From a virus: a stretch of 38,607 nt of DNA. Positions 107 to 38,607 of this stretch are shown here, one piece after another. A program made the position numbers and the translations under genes. The notes below the pieces were generated by a model that was not told the DNA's origin, ran no database searches, and was given only the letters and a program-made list of their open reading frames with translations. Every line of letters begins with the position of its first letter. Within the stretch, counting starts at the first letter, position 1. The stretch lies in IMG/VR virus record IMGVR_UViG_3300043425_000405, positions 1-38,607 of that record; one strand, written 5' to 3'.

Positions 107-172
107 CTGGGTCATGATTGCGCGGGTCATGACTGCGTAGGTCATGACGTCATGACTGCGTAGGTCATGACC
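107..172. repeat. GGTCATGAC iteron array (left copy)
   Basis: The palindromic octamer GTCATGAC occurs at 126-133, 141-148, 149-156 and 164-171, with a degenerate first unit at 110-117. Start spacings are about 15, 15, 8 and 15 bases, and the spacer between units is TGCGTA or TTGCGC. The array resembles initiator-binding iterons of replicons. No Rep-type initiator gene was recognised, so the binding protein is unknown. Confidence 0.7.
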
Positions 173-192
173 GAATTTGCATGGGTGTGTTA

Positions 193-206
193 CTGTGTTA
201 ACACAG
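193..206. promoter_or_regulatory. Perfect 14-bp palindrome (left copy)
   Basis: CTGTGTTAACACAG is perfectly self-complementary. In the right copy (38445-38458) the equivalent is CTGTATTAATACAG, where a G-to-A change on one arm is matched by a C-to-T change on the other. Such paired change suggests a dimeric protein site or cruciform is maintained. The binding factor is unknown. Confidence 0.6.
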
Positions 207-359
207 CACATGGGCAATCTGGGTCATGGAAATGCAGGCCGTTCTTATAAAGAACAATTTATAACCATATAGGTTAATTATATACTTTTTTCATACTGAC
301 TATACAATCCATTACCCAGATTACCCAGAACTCTCCAAGACCCGCGCATTTGAGCCGTT

Positions 360-500
360 TTTTTCTGGGCAATTTATAGCGAAACCATGACCCAGCAAAT
401 GACCATTTCGCCCAGTTTCAGGACCCATGATTTTCGCCCTATTTTTTCTGGGTCATTTTCTGGGCGGTTTCTGGGTCATGTTTTTTGGCAAATGACCCAG
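360..500. repeat. CTGGGTCAT/ATGACCCAG repeat cluster
   Basis: The nonamer CTGGGTCAT occurs on the + strand at 448-456 and 471-479 and on the - strand at 387-395 and 492-500. Further + copies lie at 107-115 and 219-227. Shorter CTGGGC or CCCAG variants lie between them, often after a T-run. The cluster sits between the iterons and the early promoter and looks like multiple binding sites for one protein, for replication initiation or early gene control. Confidence 0.65.
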
Positions 501-5802: not shown

Positions 5803-8145
5803 TCAATTCTTGCCTATCGACGGCATAATACTCGACTTAGGCAACTCTTCTGCCAAGCGGCGCAAGTCTGATTTGTTCCGCTGGCGCACGTCAGGCGCGG
5901 CGAAGATGTGCTTCTTTGTGGGATACTCCACAGAGTGAACGCGGCCTATGTCAACCCATCCAGCTTCCTTTAGAGCGTGTAGGAGCGCCGCCTGTGGTAT
6001 CTTCACGCCAGCAGGCACGTTGATTGCCAGCGCGTCACAGATACGATGGAACGGGCCGCCGATCACGCCATTGGCGAACACACCCGCCTTCTCGCGCATC
6101 ATGTCTACCAGATAGCTTTCGGCAACGCTCATGCCATGCTCGACCATGTTCAGTTTCCATTCGGTCACTGGCGGCGCAGCCGCAGGGTTGAACGCCGACA
6201 CGTCGCGTTGATGGAGCCAAGCGGCGCACTTCTCATAGCCGCCGTTCTTATACCACGCCCACAGCTTGTCCGCTGCGGCTGGAGCCATGCGCGGCGCGTG
6301 CGTCCACACGCAGAACCACCGCCTGTCCTGTGTCGGCAGCGTGATGGGCAGCGGATCGTTCGTGTAAGCGATGACCATCAGGCGGTTCACCAGTTCGTAA
6401 GGGTGCATCCCCTTGCGGTTGACTGTCAACGTCTCAGGCGGCGCAGCGATGAGCGGCTTCAGCTTGTTAGCCATAGCGCGGCGCTCTCGTGCCTCTGGTT
6501 CCTTCAACTCGTTCAGGATGACAACCTCAGCCTCAAGCGAATAGCCCCACTGGCTGTCCAACCCGCCAGCCTCAATGACTGACCTGTTGCGCCAATGCTT
6601 GCCGCCCAGCGCCCACAGGAACGGCTGGAACATACTGTCCTTACCGACGCCTTCATCGCCGCCGATTAGGATGGCATGGTTAATCTTGACGTTGGGATGC
6701 TGTATCTTGAACGCCATAGCGTTAAGGATGTGGTCTAGTTCTTTGTCATCAGCCACCAAATCGCGGCAATGCTGAAGCCACGGCTCAACGTCATGATCGG
6801 CGATTGCATCGCTGTCTGACACGTCAGGGCGCCCGTCTGTCCACCTGTTGCCGTAGACAAGCCCGTCACGCGTCACCAACACGTCATCGCCAGCGGCGAA
6901 CGTCACCGCCGACAGCGCAGGAGCGCCGCGATCTTGACGGCGCTCATCATAATAGATGGACGCCTGCACGCGCTGGGTCTTTTTGTGGATGGAGCGGCAT
7001 TCAACGTGACGGAACAGCGCGTTAAAGACGTTGCGGGCTATCTCTTGACGCGTCACCATGTCAAAATAGCAGTCATCGGACTGGATATAAGCGAAACGCT
7101 CGAACCATTCGTTTTGTTCCAGCCGTCCGGCTTCTTTCTTTTCAACCTCACGCACACGCGCTGCGGCCTCATCAGGAAAGGCATCATTCGGCGCGATCTT
7201 GTCATACATCGACGCCAGACGTTCGGCGATGAGTTCGTCACGCAATCCCGGAGTTACCTTCGGGCCACCATTGTTGTCTACCCAATCAAGAAAGGCGCGG
7301 CTGTCTAGGTCTTGGCAATGCCCGTGGTAGCAGCAAAACGAGCGGTCGAGCGGCTTGTAGCGCGCCTCAACCATGCCGTCGCTGTGTTGCTCATAGTTAG
7401 GACAAACGATGCCGCACCAGCCGTCAGCATTAGGTGCGCTAAGAACTAGGCTGTTTTCGTTTAGCCATGTCAGGACGTTGTCAAGGCCATTGTCGCGCAA
7501 CTGCACCGTTTTATACTCGGCTGTGTCGCCTTCCTGTGGCGTGACGCCCAGCGCCGCGCATATTTCATCCAGCGTGTATTCACGCTCAGGGTGGAACTCG
7601 ACCAGCCGCGCCGGAAAGTTATTGCGCCCGCGCTTCAGGTTGACGCTGCCGGGTATACGACAGTTGCGGACGGCGTTAGTCGCGCCGGGATCGGTGTAGC
7701 CAGCATCCGCGATGGCCTTGATGGCCGCGCAGAAGTCGCCTTTCTTTGGTTGGTCGCTGAACGCGTAGCCCCATTGGAACGAACCTTCGCTGGTTTCCAA
7801 CACCCATGTCGGGTCAAGCGGCGGCTCTTTTGATTTCGTGCCAACGTCATCCAGCATCATGAACAGGACATATTCGACGTTGCTCGACTTGGCGGACGGC
7901 TTGCCGTCTACAAAGCGGTCAACGATGAACGAGCCTGTGTTGATATACCACGCCTCGCCTTCTTTGATGCGTGCCTTGTCAGGCATGAACGCAGGAAAGG
8001 TGGCGGATGGCACGCCGTCAGCATGGTAGATGATGCTGCCATCAGCGTCATACTTGGGCTTCTGACGCAACAACAGCGCCGTCTCGCCAGTTTCGCTGGC
8101 TAGGCCGGTGACGTAATCTATAAACTTGATGCGATCCTCACTCAT
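5803..8145 (-). CDS. Primase-helicase (AEP-type primase + SF3/D5-like helicase)
   Basis: A replicative fusion of 780 aa. In numbering from the ATG at 8145: about residues 90-185 resemble a RepB/AEP-type primase, with an acidic LDD motif (~98-100) and RNCRIPGSVNLKRG (~160-173). A Cys/His cluster (CGIVCP...H and CCYHGHC, ~244-277) looks like a zinc site. The helicase has Walker A GGDEGVGKDS (~495-504), Walker B VVILNELKE (~541-549) and an SF3-like YTNDPLP...DRRWF motif (~594-610), as in DUF5906/D5-like helicases. The ATG at 8145 has an ideal AAGGAG seven bases upstream; an in-frame ATG at 8166 is seven residues longer. It should unwind and prime DNA for the adjacent polymerase. Confidence 0.9.
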   Translation of the reverse strand: MSEDRIKFIDYVTGLASETGETALLLRQKPKYDADGSIIYHADGVPSATFPAFMPDKARIKEGEAWYINTGSFIVDRFVDGKPSAKSSNVEYVLFMMLDDVGTKSKEPPLDPTWVLETSEGSFQWGYAFSDQPKKGDFCAAIKAIADAGYTDPGATNAVRNCRIPGSVNLKRGRNNFPARLVEFHPEREYTLDEICAALGVTPQEGDTAEYKTVQLRDNGLDNVLTWLNENSLVLSAPNADGWCGIVCPNYEQHSDGMVEARYKPLDRSFCCYHGHCQDLDSRAFLDWVDNNGGPKVTPGLRDELIAERLASMYDKIAPNDAFPDEAAARVREVEKKEAGRLEQNEWFERFAYIQSDDCYFDMVTRQEIARNVFNALFRHVECRSIHKKTQRVQASIYYDERRQDRGAPALSAVTFAAGDDVLVTRDGLVYGNRWTDGRPDVSDSDAIADHDVEPWLQHCRDLVADDKELDHILNAMAFKIQHPNVKINHAILIGGDEGVGKDSMFQPFLWALGGKHWRNRSVIEAGGLDSQWGYSLEAEVVILNELKEPEARERRAMANKLKPLIAAPPETLTVNRKGMHPYELVNRLMVIAYTNDPLPITLPTQDRRWFCVWTHAPRMAPAAADKLWAWYKNGGYEKCAAWLHQRDVSAFNPAAAPPVTEWKLNMVEHGMSVAESYLVDMMREKAGVFANGVIGGPFHRICDALAINVPAGVKIPQAALLHALKEAGWVDIGRVHSVEYPTKKHIFAAPDVRQRNKSDLRRLAEELPKSSIMPSIGKN

Positions 8146-8155
8146 CGCTTGCTCC

Positions 8156-10129
8156 TTATTTGCCATATCGTTCCATAACTGCCACTTCTGCGTTCAGGGG
8201 TAGCCCTGATGCCCAAGGTGGCGGCTCACACATAATCTGCACCAGCCGCGCTGCGGCGGCTTCGGCTTCATCCTCTGGCACTTCCAAGACGATTTCATCG
8301 TGGATGTGCAACACTACGTTGTCCAATCGACGCAAGGCGGAGCGCAGCAAGTCGTTGGCGACAGCCTGCGTGATGTTCTCACACGCCAGACCGCGCCACA
8401 GCCGCGCCCTCGGCCACTCTTTCGCATCTGCGGCTGGCTTCCATGAAGCCTTGGCATAGGTCAGATTGCCTTCTTCGTCAAAACGGGCGAAAGGATAACA
8501 TAACACACGTCCGGACGGAAGAGCATACCAAAGATGCAATCCATCAAATAAATATGTGACGCGGCCAACGGTGAACTCGCGGCCCTTGTTCCGCATGGCG
8601 CGCATATAGGTTTCCTCAAGGCCCGACCAATACGGCACGGCCCATTTGTTTGCCCTGCGCCATGCGTCTACCATGCGCTTTGCGTCGCTCTCCGACATGG
8701 TCAAGCCGTAGATGCGGCCCATGCTGGCGAACGCGCCGACGCCACCGGCAAAGCCGCACGCCAACTCCTGAACCTTGCCGATTTGGCGCTGGTCTTTATC
8801 GACCTCGTCATAGCCGACATGGAATGTCGCCATAGCGTTGTGCTTGTAAACGTCCTCACCCTTGGCGAAGATATCCAGCTTGTTTGCGCCGAAGGTGCTG
8901 TTGGACGCCCACGGCGTGACGCGCGCTTCGATAGCAGCCCAGTCAGCGACGATGAGCCGCTTGCCTTTGTCGGCCATCAGCGCAGGGCGTAGCATACCTT
9001 TCAACACGTCCGTCACGCGGCGACCATGCTCAGGGACTATTCTGTGGCCGCGCACCATAGCCTGCCGCACTAATGCCGGGTCATCGGCACATTTTCTTGG
9101 GAAGTTGTGGACCTGAAGCCCAAATGACGAAGCACGGCCAGTAGCGCTGCCTCCTGCAAATACGAACGCTCCTCTAACACGAAAATCTTCCTCATCAGCG
9201 AGCGCCGCCGCACGCTCGAACTTTGCAACGGACGATGCCCACAAATCGTCCGCGCACTGGATAACCTCCGCAACTTCTGCCGGTACTTCATCTGGGTTCT
9301 CCTCCGCCAACGCGAGCAAATTAGCGCGCACGTTCTTGTCAATAGATAGCTTGGCTTCGCCGTCTTTGTAAATGGTCGCCAGTTCGAGCGCCTGCGGCCC
9401 TACACGGTCCAACACCCATTTACGCATCTTCGGGCTGCGGACGGACGTTATCTCGCCCTGCGTCACCTCTGCGACGATGTCTTGTATCTCGACCATCTCT
9501 TCTTGTGCGTAGCGCACAGCGGCCAGCGCCAGCGGCCTGTCGAGCAGGACGCCACGGTCATTGATGCGTTCGTTGGTGTGATAGTCGGCCAACTCATCCG
9601 CCGACAGCGGACGCTGCGCCTGCGCGATAGCGCGCATGGCACGGACATCCTGCGCTCCGTATTCACGAAACTCATCAAATAGGGCTGGATCGTCGCTATA
9701 CGGCGGTATGCACAGTTGCCGGATAAGCTGTTTACCGCGATGGTCTTTTTTCATTGATGCACCCATAAACCGGCCAGCATCTTCAAGACTACCGGGCGCA
9801 CAGTTGGCCCGCGACTGCGCGGCAGTGCAATACCATTGCTCTATGCGAGGGGTAGGGACGCCGTAATCAGGGCAAACCACATACTCAAATATGAGACGAT
9901 CAAAGCCAGCGTTATGGAAGCGCAGTTGGCCTCCGTCGCGGATATGTTGTTTGACGCGTTCAGGAAAAGGTTTGCCGCACGACGGCCACCATTCACCTAC
10001 ATCTTCATCACCAAAAGCCCAGTTGAACAGTATCAACTGCGTAGACGGGTGTTGAGCGTAATTATATGAACCTGACACAGGCAGGTTACATTCGCTGCGG
10101 GTTTCCGTGTCGCCCCAAAGAATAATCAT
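8156..10129 (-). CDS. DNA polymerase, family A, with 3'-5' exonuclease
   Basis: 657 aa. N-terminal DEDD exonuclease: D7-T-E9 (motif I), N73/D77 (motif II), Y157...D161 (motif III). Polymerase motif A is DWAAIEAR (D396), motif B is RQIGKVQELACGFAGG (R448, K452) and motif C is HDE (H610-E612), so all catalytic residues are present. There is no 5'-3' exonuclease domain. The start overlaps the stop of the HNH gene (ATGA) with AAAGG upstream. This is the phage replicative polymerase, acting with the downstream primase-helicase. Confidence 0.97.
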   Translation of the reverse strand: MIILWGDTETRSECNLPVSGSYNYAQHPSTQLILFNWAFGDEDVGEWWPSCGKPFPERVKQHIRDGGQLRFHNAGFDRLIFEYVVCPDYGVPTPRIEQWYCTAAQSRANCAPGSLEDAGRFMGASMKKDHRGKQLIRQLCIPPYSDDPALFDEFREYGAQDVRAMRAIAQAQRPLSADELADYHTNERINDRGVLLDRPLALAAVRYAQEEMVEIQDIVAEVTQGEITSVRSPKMRKWVLDRVGPQALELATIYKDGEAKLSIDKNVRANLLALAEENPDEVPAEVAEVIQCADDLWASSVAKFERAAALADEEDFRVRGAFVFAGGSATGRASSFGLQVHNFPRKCADDPALVRQAMVRGHRIVPEHGRRVTDVLKGMLRPALMADKGKRLIVADWAAIEARVTPWASNSTFGANKLDIFAKGEDVYKHNAMATFHVGYDEVDKDQRQIGKVQELACGFAGGVGAFASMGRIYGLTMSESDAKRMVDAWRRANKWAVPYWSGLEETYMRAMRNKGREFTVGRVTYLFDGLHLWYALPSGRVLCYPFARFDEEGNLTYAKASWKPAADAKEWPRARLWRGLACENITQAVANDLLRSALRRLDNVVLHIHDEIVLEVPEDEAEAAAARLVQIMCEPPPWASGLPLNAEVAVMERYGK

Positions 10130-36168: not shown

Positions 36169-37695
36169 TTACGAACCCATCCAGCTAGTAGAAACTCCGT
36201 GCGGAGAATAGCTGCTAACGCGTCGCTTGTCAACGCGTGCTTCACGATGCGCAATCGGGAACGCGAATGTGACCGCTAGGGCGTCCGCAGCGTCCGGTGA
36301 GGCCAGCCCGCGCGACTTCATGTCCTTCTTGCTTTCGAGGAAGATGGTCCCCTTGCTGTCAGGCTTTACTTTAGGGCTGATCAGGTCGGTTTTCAGGAAC
36401 CTATCGTTGGGGATGTGCGCCGTTTTCAGCCAGTCGCGCATGGCGCCCCACATCTCAGCGCGCTTGTTGCCGTACATGAGTTGCTTCATGGCCTTATTGC
36501 CGAAGTTCACGCCGCGTATCTTGTACCGCTGCTCTTTCAGCCGGTCTACGACGCCCGCGCCTAGCCCACCTTCGTCGATGACGACCAGCGCGGGCTTATA
36601 CTCTTCGATAGCGTCGATGACGTGTCCGACCACTTCCATAGTGTCAGCACCGCGGTGGCGCTTGATGGCGATCAGGTCGCGCCCTTGGCGCACGGCGATG
36701 ACGGTGGCGTCCGCACCGAAGCGCGCAGGGTCAACACCGATAGCTATGGGCGCTGTTTCGTCTTTGTGCTTTGGCCGGGCCATCGCGTCATCGACCAGAT
36801 TGCTGCCGATGAACTGATCGTCGCCTTCTGATGGGAAGTTGCCGTAGACTTCAACGCTGGCCTGATAGCTGTCTGGCCCGTATTCGTCGATAATGCGCTG
36901 GTACAGGTTTTTGTCTGTACCTTCCACATCGCGCGCGTCGATAGTGCGTGTGCGCCAGAACGCCCGTTTGCTGTGAAACGTCTCGTAGAAATAGCCGGTG
37001 TTACGCCGCGGGTTGGAAAAGGCCAGATGGAAGCGATGCGGCGTGTTCTCCGTGAAGAAACCATCGCTAACCGACCAGATGCTGTCAGGAATACCGCTGG
37101 CTTCGTCGAAGATCAGCATCACACCGTCGAAGTTGTGGACCCCTGCGTATGCGTCAGGGTTCTCTTCGGACCACAGCCGCCCTTCGACTGACCAGTAGCG
37201 CGTACCTTTCTTGAGGTCGCGCTCGACCAGTTCGGTCAGCCATTTGGCTGGCATGATGCGTGTGGCGGCTATCTCGAACCAGTGGCTGTTGAGCGACATC
37301 GCCAGCCACTTGGTAATTTCTGCCCATGTGACCGAGCGTAGCTGCGCTTCAGAGTTTGCCGACACGATGGTAGTACTACCGATGCGCGTAGACAGCATCC
37401 AGATCACCAACCAACTGACCAGCGCCGACTTGCCGATACCGCGTCCAGAAGCCACCGACTCACGGAATGTATCATAGTCTAGCTTACCGTTGTTCTGCTT
37501 GATGTGGTCGCGCAGGTCGCCCAGTATCTGACGCTGCCATTTGCGCGGTCCTTGGAAATGTTCGAGCGGCGTACCTTTCTCGCCCCACGGGAATGTCAGC
37601 AGTACGAAAGCTAACGGATCATCCTTAATCGACGGCGACCACAGCCGCGTCATCAATTCCATCTCTTCGGATGCGCTGTATATCGGTTGCTGCAT
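36169..37695 (-). CDS. terL: Terminase large subunit
   Basis: 508 aa. ATPase: Walker A SGRGIGKS (83-90, K89), Walker B MLIFDEAS (193-200, D197/E198). C-terminal RNase H-like nuclease: D322 (IGVDPARF), D374 (VVIDEGG) and D468 in SPDAADAL. It pumps and cuts DNA into the head. The ATG at 37695 overlaps terS by 71 bases and has a distant GAGG; ATGs at 37662 or 37653 are alternatives. Confidence 0.95.
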   Translation of the reverse strand: MQQPIYSASEEMELMTRLWSPSIKDDPLAFVLLTFPWGEKGTPLEHFQGPRKWQRQILGDLRDHIKQNNGKLDYDTFRESVASGRGIGKSALVSWLVIWMLSTRIGSTTIVSANSEAQLRSVTWAEITKWLAMSLNSHWFEIAATRIMPAKWLTELVERDLKKGTRYWSVEGRLWSEENPDAYAGVHNFDGVMLIFDEASGIPDSIWSVSDGFFTENTPHRFHLAFSNPRRNTGYFYETFHSKRAFWRTRTIDARDVEGTDKNLYQRIIDEYGPDSYQASVEVYGNFPSEGDDQFIGSNLVDDAMARPKHKDETAPIAIGVDPARFGADATVIAVRQGRDLIAIKRHRGADTMEVVGHVIDAIEEYKPALVVIDEGGLGAGVVDRLKEQRYKIRGVNFGNKAMKQLMYGNKRAEMWGAMRDWLKTAHIPNDRFLKTDLISPKVKPDSKGTIFLESKKDMKSRGLASPDAADALAVTFAFPIAHREARVDKRRVSSYSPHGVSTSWMGS

Positions 37696-38119
37696 GGTAG
37701 GTGCTATCCTCTATCTGGGGTACTTCAATGTACGTCCCTTCGATGACGCGCTGCTGTGCCTTTTCCAGCGCGCCTGTAATGCTGATTTGCTGGTCGATGT
37801 TAACGTCGATCTGCTGCTTGGCTACCCAGCCATGCTGATGCTTGAGTATTTCCAGCGCAGCCTTGCTGTCGCCATCGCGCGCCGCTTCGTACATGGTCTT
37901 GGCCGCGGTGTATTCGCCGTCGGTGCGCCCTTTGATCTCAGCCATCTCGACCAGCGGGTCTGCTTCAGCCAATATGCGGTATTGGCGCGGGGTTAATCCA
38001 GCGGCCATAGCGAGGCTGTCGCCTTTCAGTCCGTAGCGCGCGGCTTCATAGATTGCCTCTAACCGCGCCTCGGTGGCTTGCGTGCGCTCAGGTGTAAATG
38101 GCAGTGAGTAAAATGTCAT
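37625..38119 (-). CDS. terS: Terminase small subunit
   Basis: 164 aa from ATG 38119. Helix-turn-helix-like N-terminus (YGLKGDSLAMAAGLTPRQYR), then a helical repeat-type centre including GDSKAALEILKHQHGW, and an acidic tail, as in many TerS proteins. It recognises the packaging site and loads TerL. There is no good ribosome site, and the promoter at 38127-38155 puts the predicted mRNA start next to the ATG, so translation may be leaderless. The next in-frame ATGs inside the gene would delete the HTH. Confidence 0.85.
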   Translation of the reverse strand: MTFYSLPFTPERTQATEARLEAIYEAARYGLKGDSLAMAAGLTPRQYRILAEADPLVEMAEIKGRTDGEYTAAKTMYEAARDGDSKAALEILKHQHGWVAKQQIDVNIDQQISITGALEKAQQRVIEGTYIEVPQIEDSTYHAATDIQRIRRDGIDDAAVVAVD

Positions 38120-38126
38120 TGCGCGT

Positions 38127-38155
38127 ACTATAGTGTGTTGCAAACCATATTGCAA
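38127..38155 (-). promoter_or_regulatory. Late operon promoter
   Basis: On the - strand TTGCAA (38155-38150) and TATAGT (38132-38127) are 17 bases apart. The predicted start is about 38120, next to the terS ATG. A second TTGCAA (38143-38138) lies in the spacer and could be an operator half-site. This is the only clear promoter for the 23.6-kb leftward operon. Confidence 0.78.
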
Positions 38156-38185
38156 AAAAAATAAAAATTGTTTGCGGTAGGTGCC

Positions 38186-38224: not shown

Positions 38225-38359
38225 TCCAGTCCGCCAGCGTTTCGGCTTTGTTCTATCGCGCAGATTTTGGAATGGCCTTTCACTTTCGCTAATGCGAACG
38301 GTTCGCAAAAACACATCGGCTGGCTGGCTATGCTGCGGTGCAACATTTTACTGGGCAGT

Positions 38360-38424
38360 CTGGGTCATGATTGCGCGGGTCATGATGCGTGGGTCATGAC
38401 GTCATGACTGCGTAGGTCATGACC
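38360..38424. repeat. GGTCATGAC iteron array (right copy)
   Basis: Same array as 107-172, with one base deleted between the second and third units and one substitution in a spacer. The GTCATGA cores are unchanged. The conserved cores with varying spacers are consistent with binding sites under selection. Confidence 0.65.
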
Positions 38425-38444
38425 AAATTTGCATGGGTGTATTA

Positions 38445-38458
38445 CTGTATTAATACAG
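38445..38458. promoter_or_regulatory. Perfect 14-bp palindrome (right copy)
   Basis: CTGTATTAATACAG, the counterpart of 193-206. Both arms changed together relative to the left copy, so the dyad is intact. It lies 3' of the iterons, as in the left copy. Confidence 0.6.
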
Positions 38459-38607
38459 CACATGGGCATTCTGGGTCATCGAAATGCAGGCCGTTCTTAT
38501 AAAGAACAATTTATAACCATATAGGTTAATTATATACTTTTTTCATACTGACTATACAATCCATTACCCAGATTACCCAGAACTCTCCAAGACCCGCGCA
38601 TTTGAGC

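Follow-up and report, generated by a model that had tools for sequence, protein, structure and literature searches.

The window analysed here is a whole stretch of 38,607 nucleotides from a single virus record (G000), which carries near its left end a 14-bp perfect palindrome, CTGTGTTAACACAG, inside an intergenic region that also holds two sets of iterons (Table 1). A second 14-bp palindrome, CTGTATTAATACAG, lies near the right end and is perfect as well, as the original prediction had stated, and no further site resembling either of them at up to two mismatches was found elsewhere in the window. Perfect palindromes of at least 14 bp are not rare genome-wide, with four observed across the 38.6 kb and 4.3 expected; all four (two sites in each of two copies) fall in one intergenic region, for which 0.07 would be expected per 640 bases. 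The original prediction had described the left and right 14-mers as differing by one change on each arm, which is correct for both 14-mers but misses a third concordant change at position 188. The comparison of GGTGTGTTACTGTGTTAACACAG with GGTGTATTACTGTATTAATACAG therefore comprises three concordant changes, not two, the third lying in a further left half-site (186–192) that is part of the element too. A 16-bp palindrome, GTCATGACGTCATGAC, is found at 141–156 and 38393–38408 and is present in several relatives as well; it had no match in 80 host genomes. A BLAST search of the region against phages returned no match, and the exact 37-base site of the window was not found among viral contigs.

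Table 1. Positions of the features discussed in the text (window coordinates)
Feature	Position	Strand	Remark
Second operator-like palindrome TTTACGTTAACGTCAA	31..46	none	Absent from right allele
Iteron CTGGGTCAT, left set	107..115	+	
HisR-type 20-bp operator TGTGTTA-N6-TAACACA, left allele	186..205	none	Conserved unit
14-bp perfect palindrome CTGTGTTAACACAG, left allele	193..206	none	
Iteron CTGGGTCAT, left set	219..227	+	13 bp from HisR-type operator
127-bp stretch	229..355	none	Exact copy at right end of record
AT-rich stretch between iteron sets	241..310	none	70–80% A+T in 40-base windows; candidate unwinding element
Two adjacent one-mismatch iterons ATTACCCAG, right set	311..328	-	
Iteron ATGACCCAG, right set	387..395	-	
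Iteron CTGGGTCAT, right set	448..456	+	
Iteron CTGGGTCAT, right set	471..479	+	
Iteron ATGACCCAG, right set	492..500	-	
DnaA-box-like TGTGGATAA	520..528	-	Read from sequence; in some relatives only
Primase-helicase (787 aa), proposed initiator	5803..8166	-	
Primase-helicase codons 744–751, wing of predicted winged-helix domain	5914..5937	-	Residues track iteron type
Terminase small subunit gene (terS)	37625..38119	-	Left flank of intergenic region on circular genome
Promoter-like site in front of terS	38127..38156	-	
HisR-type 20-bp operator TGTATTA-N6-TAATACA, right allele	38438..38457	none	
14-bp perfect palindrome CTGTATTAATACAG, right allele	38445..38458	none	
Exact 127-bp copy of 229–355	38481..38607	none	At contig end; read as assembly-graph overlap

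The phages of this group carry P22-like genes, with a P22-like portal and coat in MW202483, and are related to the circular record DSL-LC05 (PMC10611076). In the window, the two copies of the intergenic sequence (15–355 and 38268–38607) are 92% identical, and the exact match is confined to 127 bp that start 228 bases from the left end, with identity dropping to approximately 87% just beyond them in the alignment. A length of 127 is the largest k-mer in a common metagenome assembler setting. The contig of a relative (G007) also ends in an exact 127-bp overlap that matches another place in its own genome, the contigs of other relatives in the group end at differing places, and the relatives inspected contain the region only once, between terS and the early genes. 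The two copies probably represent alleles of a single intergenic locus from two strains, the genome being circularly permuted. Direct terminal repeats would be identical at both extreme ends, and the copies in the window are not. Of the "repeat copies" in the original prediction, the similar sequence at both ends stands, while a physical terminal repeat is probably not what they represent. It is quite unlikely that these are genuine terminal repeats, or a real duplication that left two diverged copies in one genome: the high identity of the two ends would fit, but the exact overlap at the end only, the one copy in the inspected relatives and the differing contig ends of the group all count against it, and with P22-like genes circular permutation by headful packaging is expected. 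A module swap also distinguishes the alleles, with the MerR-type palindrome discussed below in the left one (31–46) and an inverted repeat, GCGAACGGTTCGC, in its place in the right one (38268–38310).

The paired changes in the two alleles had been interpreted in the original prediction as compensatory, on the grounds that two matching changes are unlikely by chance, and independent variation of the arms in related phages had been named as the observation that would contradict this. We scanned IMG/VR with a pattern left free at the variable positions, recognised members of the group via family proteins and then counted the variable positions. For the inner arm pair, the four combinations were about equally frequent among the 31 sites that remained after near-identical contexts had been removed (AC 9, GC 8, GT 7 and AT 7; Fisher p=1.0), as they were in the full set of 54 informative contexts (GT 15, AT 15, AC 14 and GC 10; p=0.59), and the outer arm pair was uncoupled as well (GT 20, GC 8, AC 4 and AT 2). 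The left variable position is a purine and the right one a pyrimidine in nearly all sites, each independently of the other. The arms therefore vary independently, which is the observation that the original prediction had named as contradicting it; roughly every second site should carry a perfect inner palindrome, and the two perfect alleles are unremarkable. The proposed covariation thus falls away, while the dyad-symmetric site itself holds up, being conserved in many related phages at one to three copies per intergenic region. That a structured DNA or RNA element (a cruciform or hairpin) is maintained here by compensatory change, as the perfect arms of both alleles might suggest, is highly improbable, since A-C mispairs are as frequent as matched pairs, single-strand folding of the site is no better than that of shuffles (z of -0.4 and -0.8) and an Rfam search with the site gave no match. 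Such purine/pyrimidine degeneracy is consistent with an operator that a protein binds as double-stranded DNA, and it recurs in the host hisR promoters described in the following.

Relatives without the inner palindrome (L037, L010, L278 and others) retain an outer inverted repeat, GTRTTA-N6-(T/C)AAYAC, so that what is conserved is an interrupted palindrome of 20 bp, TGTRTTA-N6-TAAYACA. The exact 22-bp pattern GTGTGTTASTGTRTTAAYACAS had only two matches in 84,980 bacterial and archaeal genomes (257 billion bases), and in both cases the match immediately precedes the start codon of a small gene whose product scores above the cut-off of TIGR02531 (YerC/YecD family TrpR-related). In the matching Hellea genome, this hisR (yerC) gene is followed by hisG as the next gene, and neither of the two host loci encodes phage-family proteins. 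Within 80 genomes of Hellea's order, 36 of which possess a hisR gene, the motif TGTRTTAN6TAAYACA has seven sites, six of them upstream of hisR, whereas the reversed control pattern has none. Over the class as a whole, the motif is no more frequent than chance predicts (8 sites versus 6 for the control, with one further site there beside a hisR gene), and the argument consequently rests on Hellea's order and on the adjacency to hisR. At 19 of 31 hisR loci checked, the upstream stretch contained the motif with a score of at least 12/14, the background of such scores in random stretches of the same loci being approximately 9%, partly because these stretches can include the true site. The host hisR sites show the same purine/pyrimidine freedom as the phage sites, and exact 20-mers of host hisR promoters recur in phages, namely TGTGTTAGTGTATTAATACA in 7 and TGTGTTAGTGTGTTAATACA in 4 of 60 phage intergenic regions. 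HisR operators in alpha- and gamma-proteobacteria have been described as 20-bp palindromes of the TGTAnTA type, and many hisR genes are autoregulated (PMC9413887); the left-allele site TGTGTTA-N6-TAACACA is likewise a 20-bp palindrome with half-sites of this type. A profile search of 16 records of the phage family found no YerC/TrpR homologue, and no his gene was recognised on the phage DNA, which indicates a HisR-like operator outside any his regulon.

HisR-type sites occur in one to three copies in 20 of the 60 phage intergenic regions, leaving two thirds of the regions without a site, and these counts come from related phages, which are non-independent samples. In eight near-complete relatives, no HisR-type site was found outside the intergenic region. 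From the match to the hisR promoters of Hellea's order we infer that the hosts might belong to this group of Alphaproteobacteria. In a prophage search for the host, the TerL relatives in this order were only distant (31–44% identity, in 4 of 299 genomes).

Other host-type words accompany the HisR-type site. The palindrome family TTKACGTTWACGTMAA, to which the second operator-like palindrome of the left allele belongs, is present in 30 of the 60 phage regions and in 11 of the 80 host genomes, where 6 of the 13 loci examined have it a short distance before a MerR-family gene (Pfam assignment), several of these six then continuing with an acyl-CoA dehydrogenase gene. A palindrome upstream of a MerR-family gene in hosts is what marks a MerR-regulator operator (LiuR-like), and on this basis TTKACGTTWACGTMAA qualifies as a putative operator of this kind. 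A further palindrome, GGTATTATAATACC, occurs in 3 of the 60 phage regions (L007, L235 and L246) and in 6 of the 80 host genomes (L418–L423; control 0), always 110–165 bp upstream of an rplM-like gene that was identified by eye from its sequence. Half-site-like TGTGTTG words are seen at 38134–38140, near the terS promoter, and at 541–547, upstream of a putative early promoter, and recur in relatives.

The setting of the HisR-type site looks like a P4/PICI-type replication origin of a P22-like podovirus. Six exact copies of CTGGGTCAT are located in the region and none in the other 37.5 kb, and the iterons form two sets that flank the AT-rich stretch, with other iteron words, of the GGACGTCAT, TAGGCTAT, TAGGTCAT and AACTTGAC types, at equivalent places in relatives. 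The HisR-type site lies within 0–14 bp of an iteron in 26 of 39 cases, mostly at 5 or 13–14 bp, a count that is inflated by related regions. GC skew across the window was weak and gave no origin signal. The proposed initiator matches DUF5906 over the cut-off, RepB_primase just under it (23.1 versus 24.3 bits) and the NrS-1 primase in the PDB; it combines primase and helicase regions, as PICI/P4-type initiators do. A C-terminal winged helix is predicted with a pLDDT of 75–89 over most of the domain, for which a structure search returned generic winged-helix matches only (Z up to 6.3), P4 alpha not being listed.

The winged helix appears to be connected with the iterons. Among 784 primase and 671 terminase columns, the four that rank highest by mutual information with the iteron type all fall within residues 744–750, which form the wing in the predicted structure; permutation z values for residues 744, 746, 750 and 749 are 9.5, 7.3, 7.4 and 4.6, respectively (33 de-duplicated loci). 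For the terminases, the highest z in the list of top columns is 2.7 (TerS) and 2.2 (TerL), and since TerS, whose gene is adjacent to the region, reaches only this value, simple linkage does not explain the tracking. In new loci with known wing classes, the predicted iterons were found in 8 of 8 (an out-of-sample set whose members are not all independent), and a new wing class, KSR, was accompanied by GTGGACAAT in 5 of 5. Across the phage group (L218–L364), the wing classes are HS/AS with TGGGTCA, GS-T/V with TAGGCTAT, NSK with GGACGTCAT and KSR with GTGGACAAT. Iteron type and wing disagree in L244, L261 and L266 of the first set, which may be recombinants or chimeric contigs.

Considering the operator and its origin-like setting together, we find it fairly probable that the palindrome forms the core of a 20-bp HisR-type operator, HisR (YerC/YecD, TrpR family) being the repressor of histidine synthesis in Hellea-related Alphaproteobacteria. 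Histidine stimulates DNA binding of a Gram-positive HisR (PMC9413887). Host HisR, with histidine as co-ligand, would bind the phage operator beside an iteron and, once bound, might compete with or shape the loading of the initiator. Its release would follow upon histidine shortage, or its titration as phage copies rise, such that initiation or transcription at the origin could be gated by histidine status, or HisR could be titrated during phage multiplication. As the site abuts an iteron, we favour gating or a local architectural role at the origin over pure titration. We tentatively consider a broader possibility as well, in which several repressors of host metabolism would be integrated at the origin, namely HisR, an acyl-CoA regulator of the MerR type and, in certain relatives, a factor that acts at rplM. 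The start of replication would then be gated by the nutrient or growth state of the host, with operator modules swapped between phages and iterons and initiator specificity co-diversifying.

The alternative that survives best, although we are inclined to doubt it, is that the operators serve purely as decoys, which would draw host HisR, along with a regulator of the MerR type, away from the chromosome while phage copies build up, thereby raising host histidine synthesis. The location at the origin would then be incidental, because the region is the main non-coding region. The presence of up to three operators per region, for different host regulators, and the off-centre placement of the sites relative to the two promoters would suit such decoys, but the recurrent iteron spacing of 5 or 13–14 bp suggests a local function, and many phages have a single site only. 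That the site is instead the operator of a phage-encoded repressor or regulator, sharing the HisR half-site by coincidence, is unlikely. Dyads of 14–20 bp are typical of phage operators and DSL-LC05, a phage of unrelated size, has an annotated repressor, but no cluster of early genes is present or absent in step with the site (best p of 0.013 among many clusters tested), and both the result of the TrpR/YerC search and the exact host hisR-promoter 20-mers in phages speak against it. Even less probable is a role as part of a packaging (pac) site or as the initiator's own site; its position among the iterons and adjacent to terS would be compatible with either, but among relatives whose terminase is conserved two thirds lack it, and no terminase or primase column tracks site presence with a large effect, the small effects looking phylogenetic and the excess information of the terminases being at most 0.15 bit.

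If host HisR does bind these sites, DNA replication in a virus group common in aquatic settings would be coupled directly to host amino-acid metabolism via the host's own repressor or, alternatively, a phage origin would serve as a repressor sponge. The operators also provide a sequence-based lead to the hosts of these uncultivated phages, and the association between wing and iterons provides a natural series for how a winged-helix initiator selects its origin. Host-regulator sites in phages and iteron origins with a primase-helicase initiator are both already known; in a limited search of the literature, we did not find operators of histidine or acyl-CoA regulators beside the iterons of a phage origin. 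Compared to the HisR operators of alpha- and gamma-proteobacteria (PMC9413887), the phage sites have the same 20-bp palindrome, TGTRTTA half-site and 6-bp spacer, and include exact 20-mers of alphaproteobacterial hisR promoters, but they are located in an intergenic region by replication iterons, in up to three copies and with no his gene nearby. PICI origins consist of two iteron sets flanking an AT-rich stretch (PMC6092414), and the candidate origin resembles those of PICI/SaPI and P4 in this arrangement as well as in its primase-helicase initiator, and perhaps in the C-terminal winged helix predicted for the latter. Unlike them, it resides in a P22-like podovirus, approximately 5 kb from the initiator gene and beside terS, contains host-type operators, and has an iteron specificity that varies among relatives together with the wing. 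Phage-borne sites of a host nutrient regulator have been described in the form of cyanophage Pho boxes (e.g., PMC10976474), to which the present sites are similar in that a phage carries sites of host nutrient regulators; whereas Pho boxes concern the phosphate regulation of phage genes, the sites described here are placed next to iterons and correspond to operators of histidine and acyl-CoA regulators.
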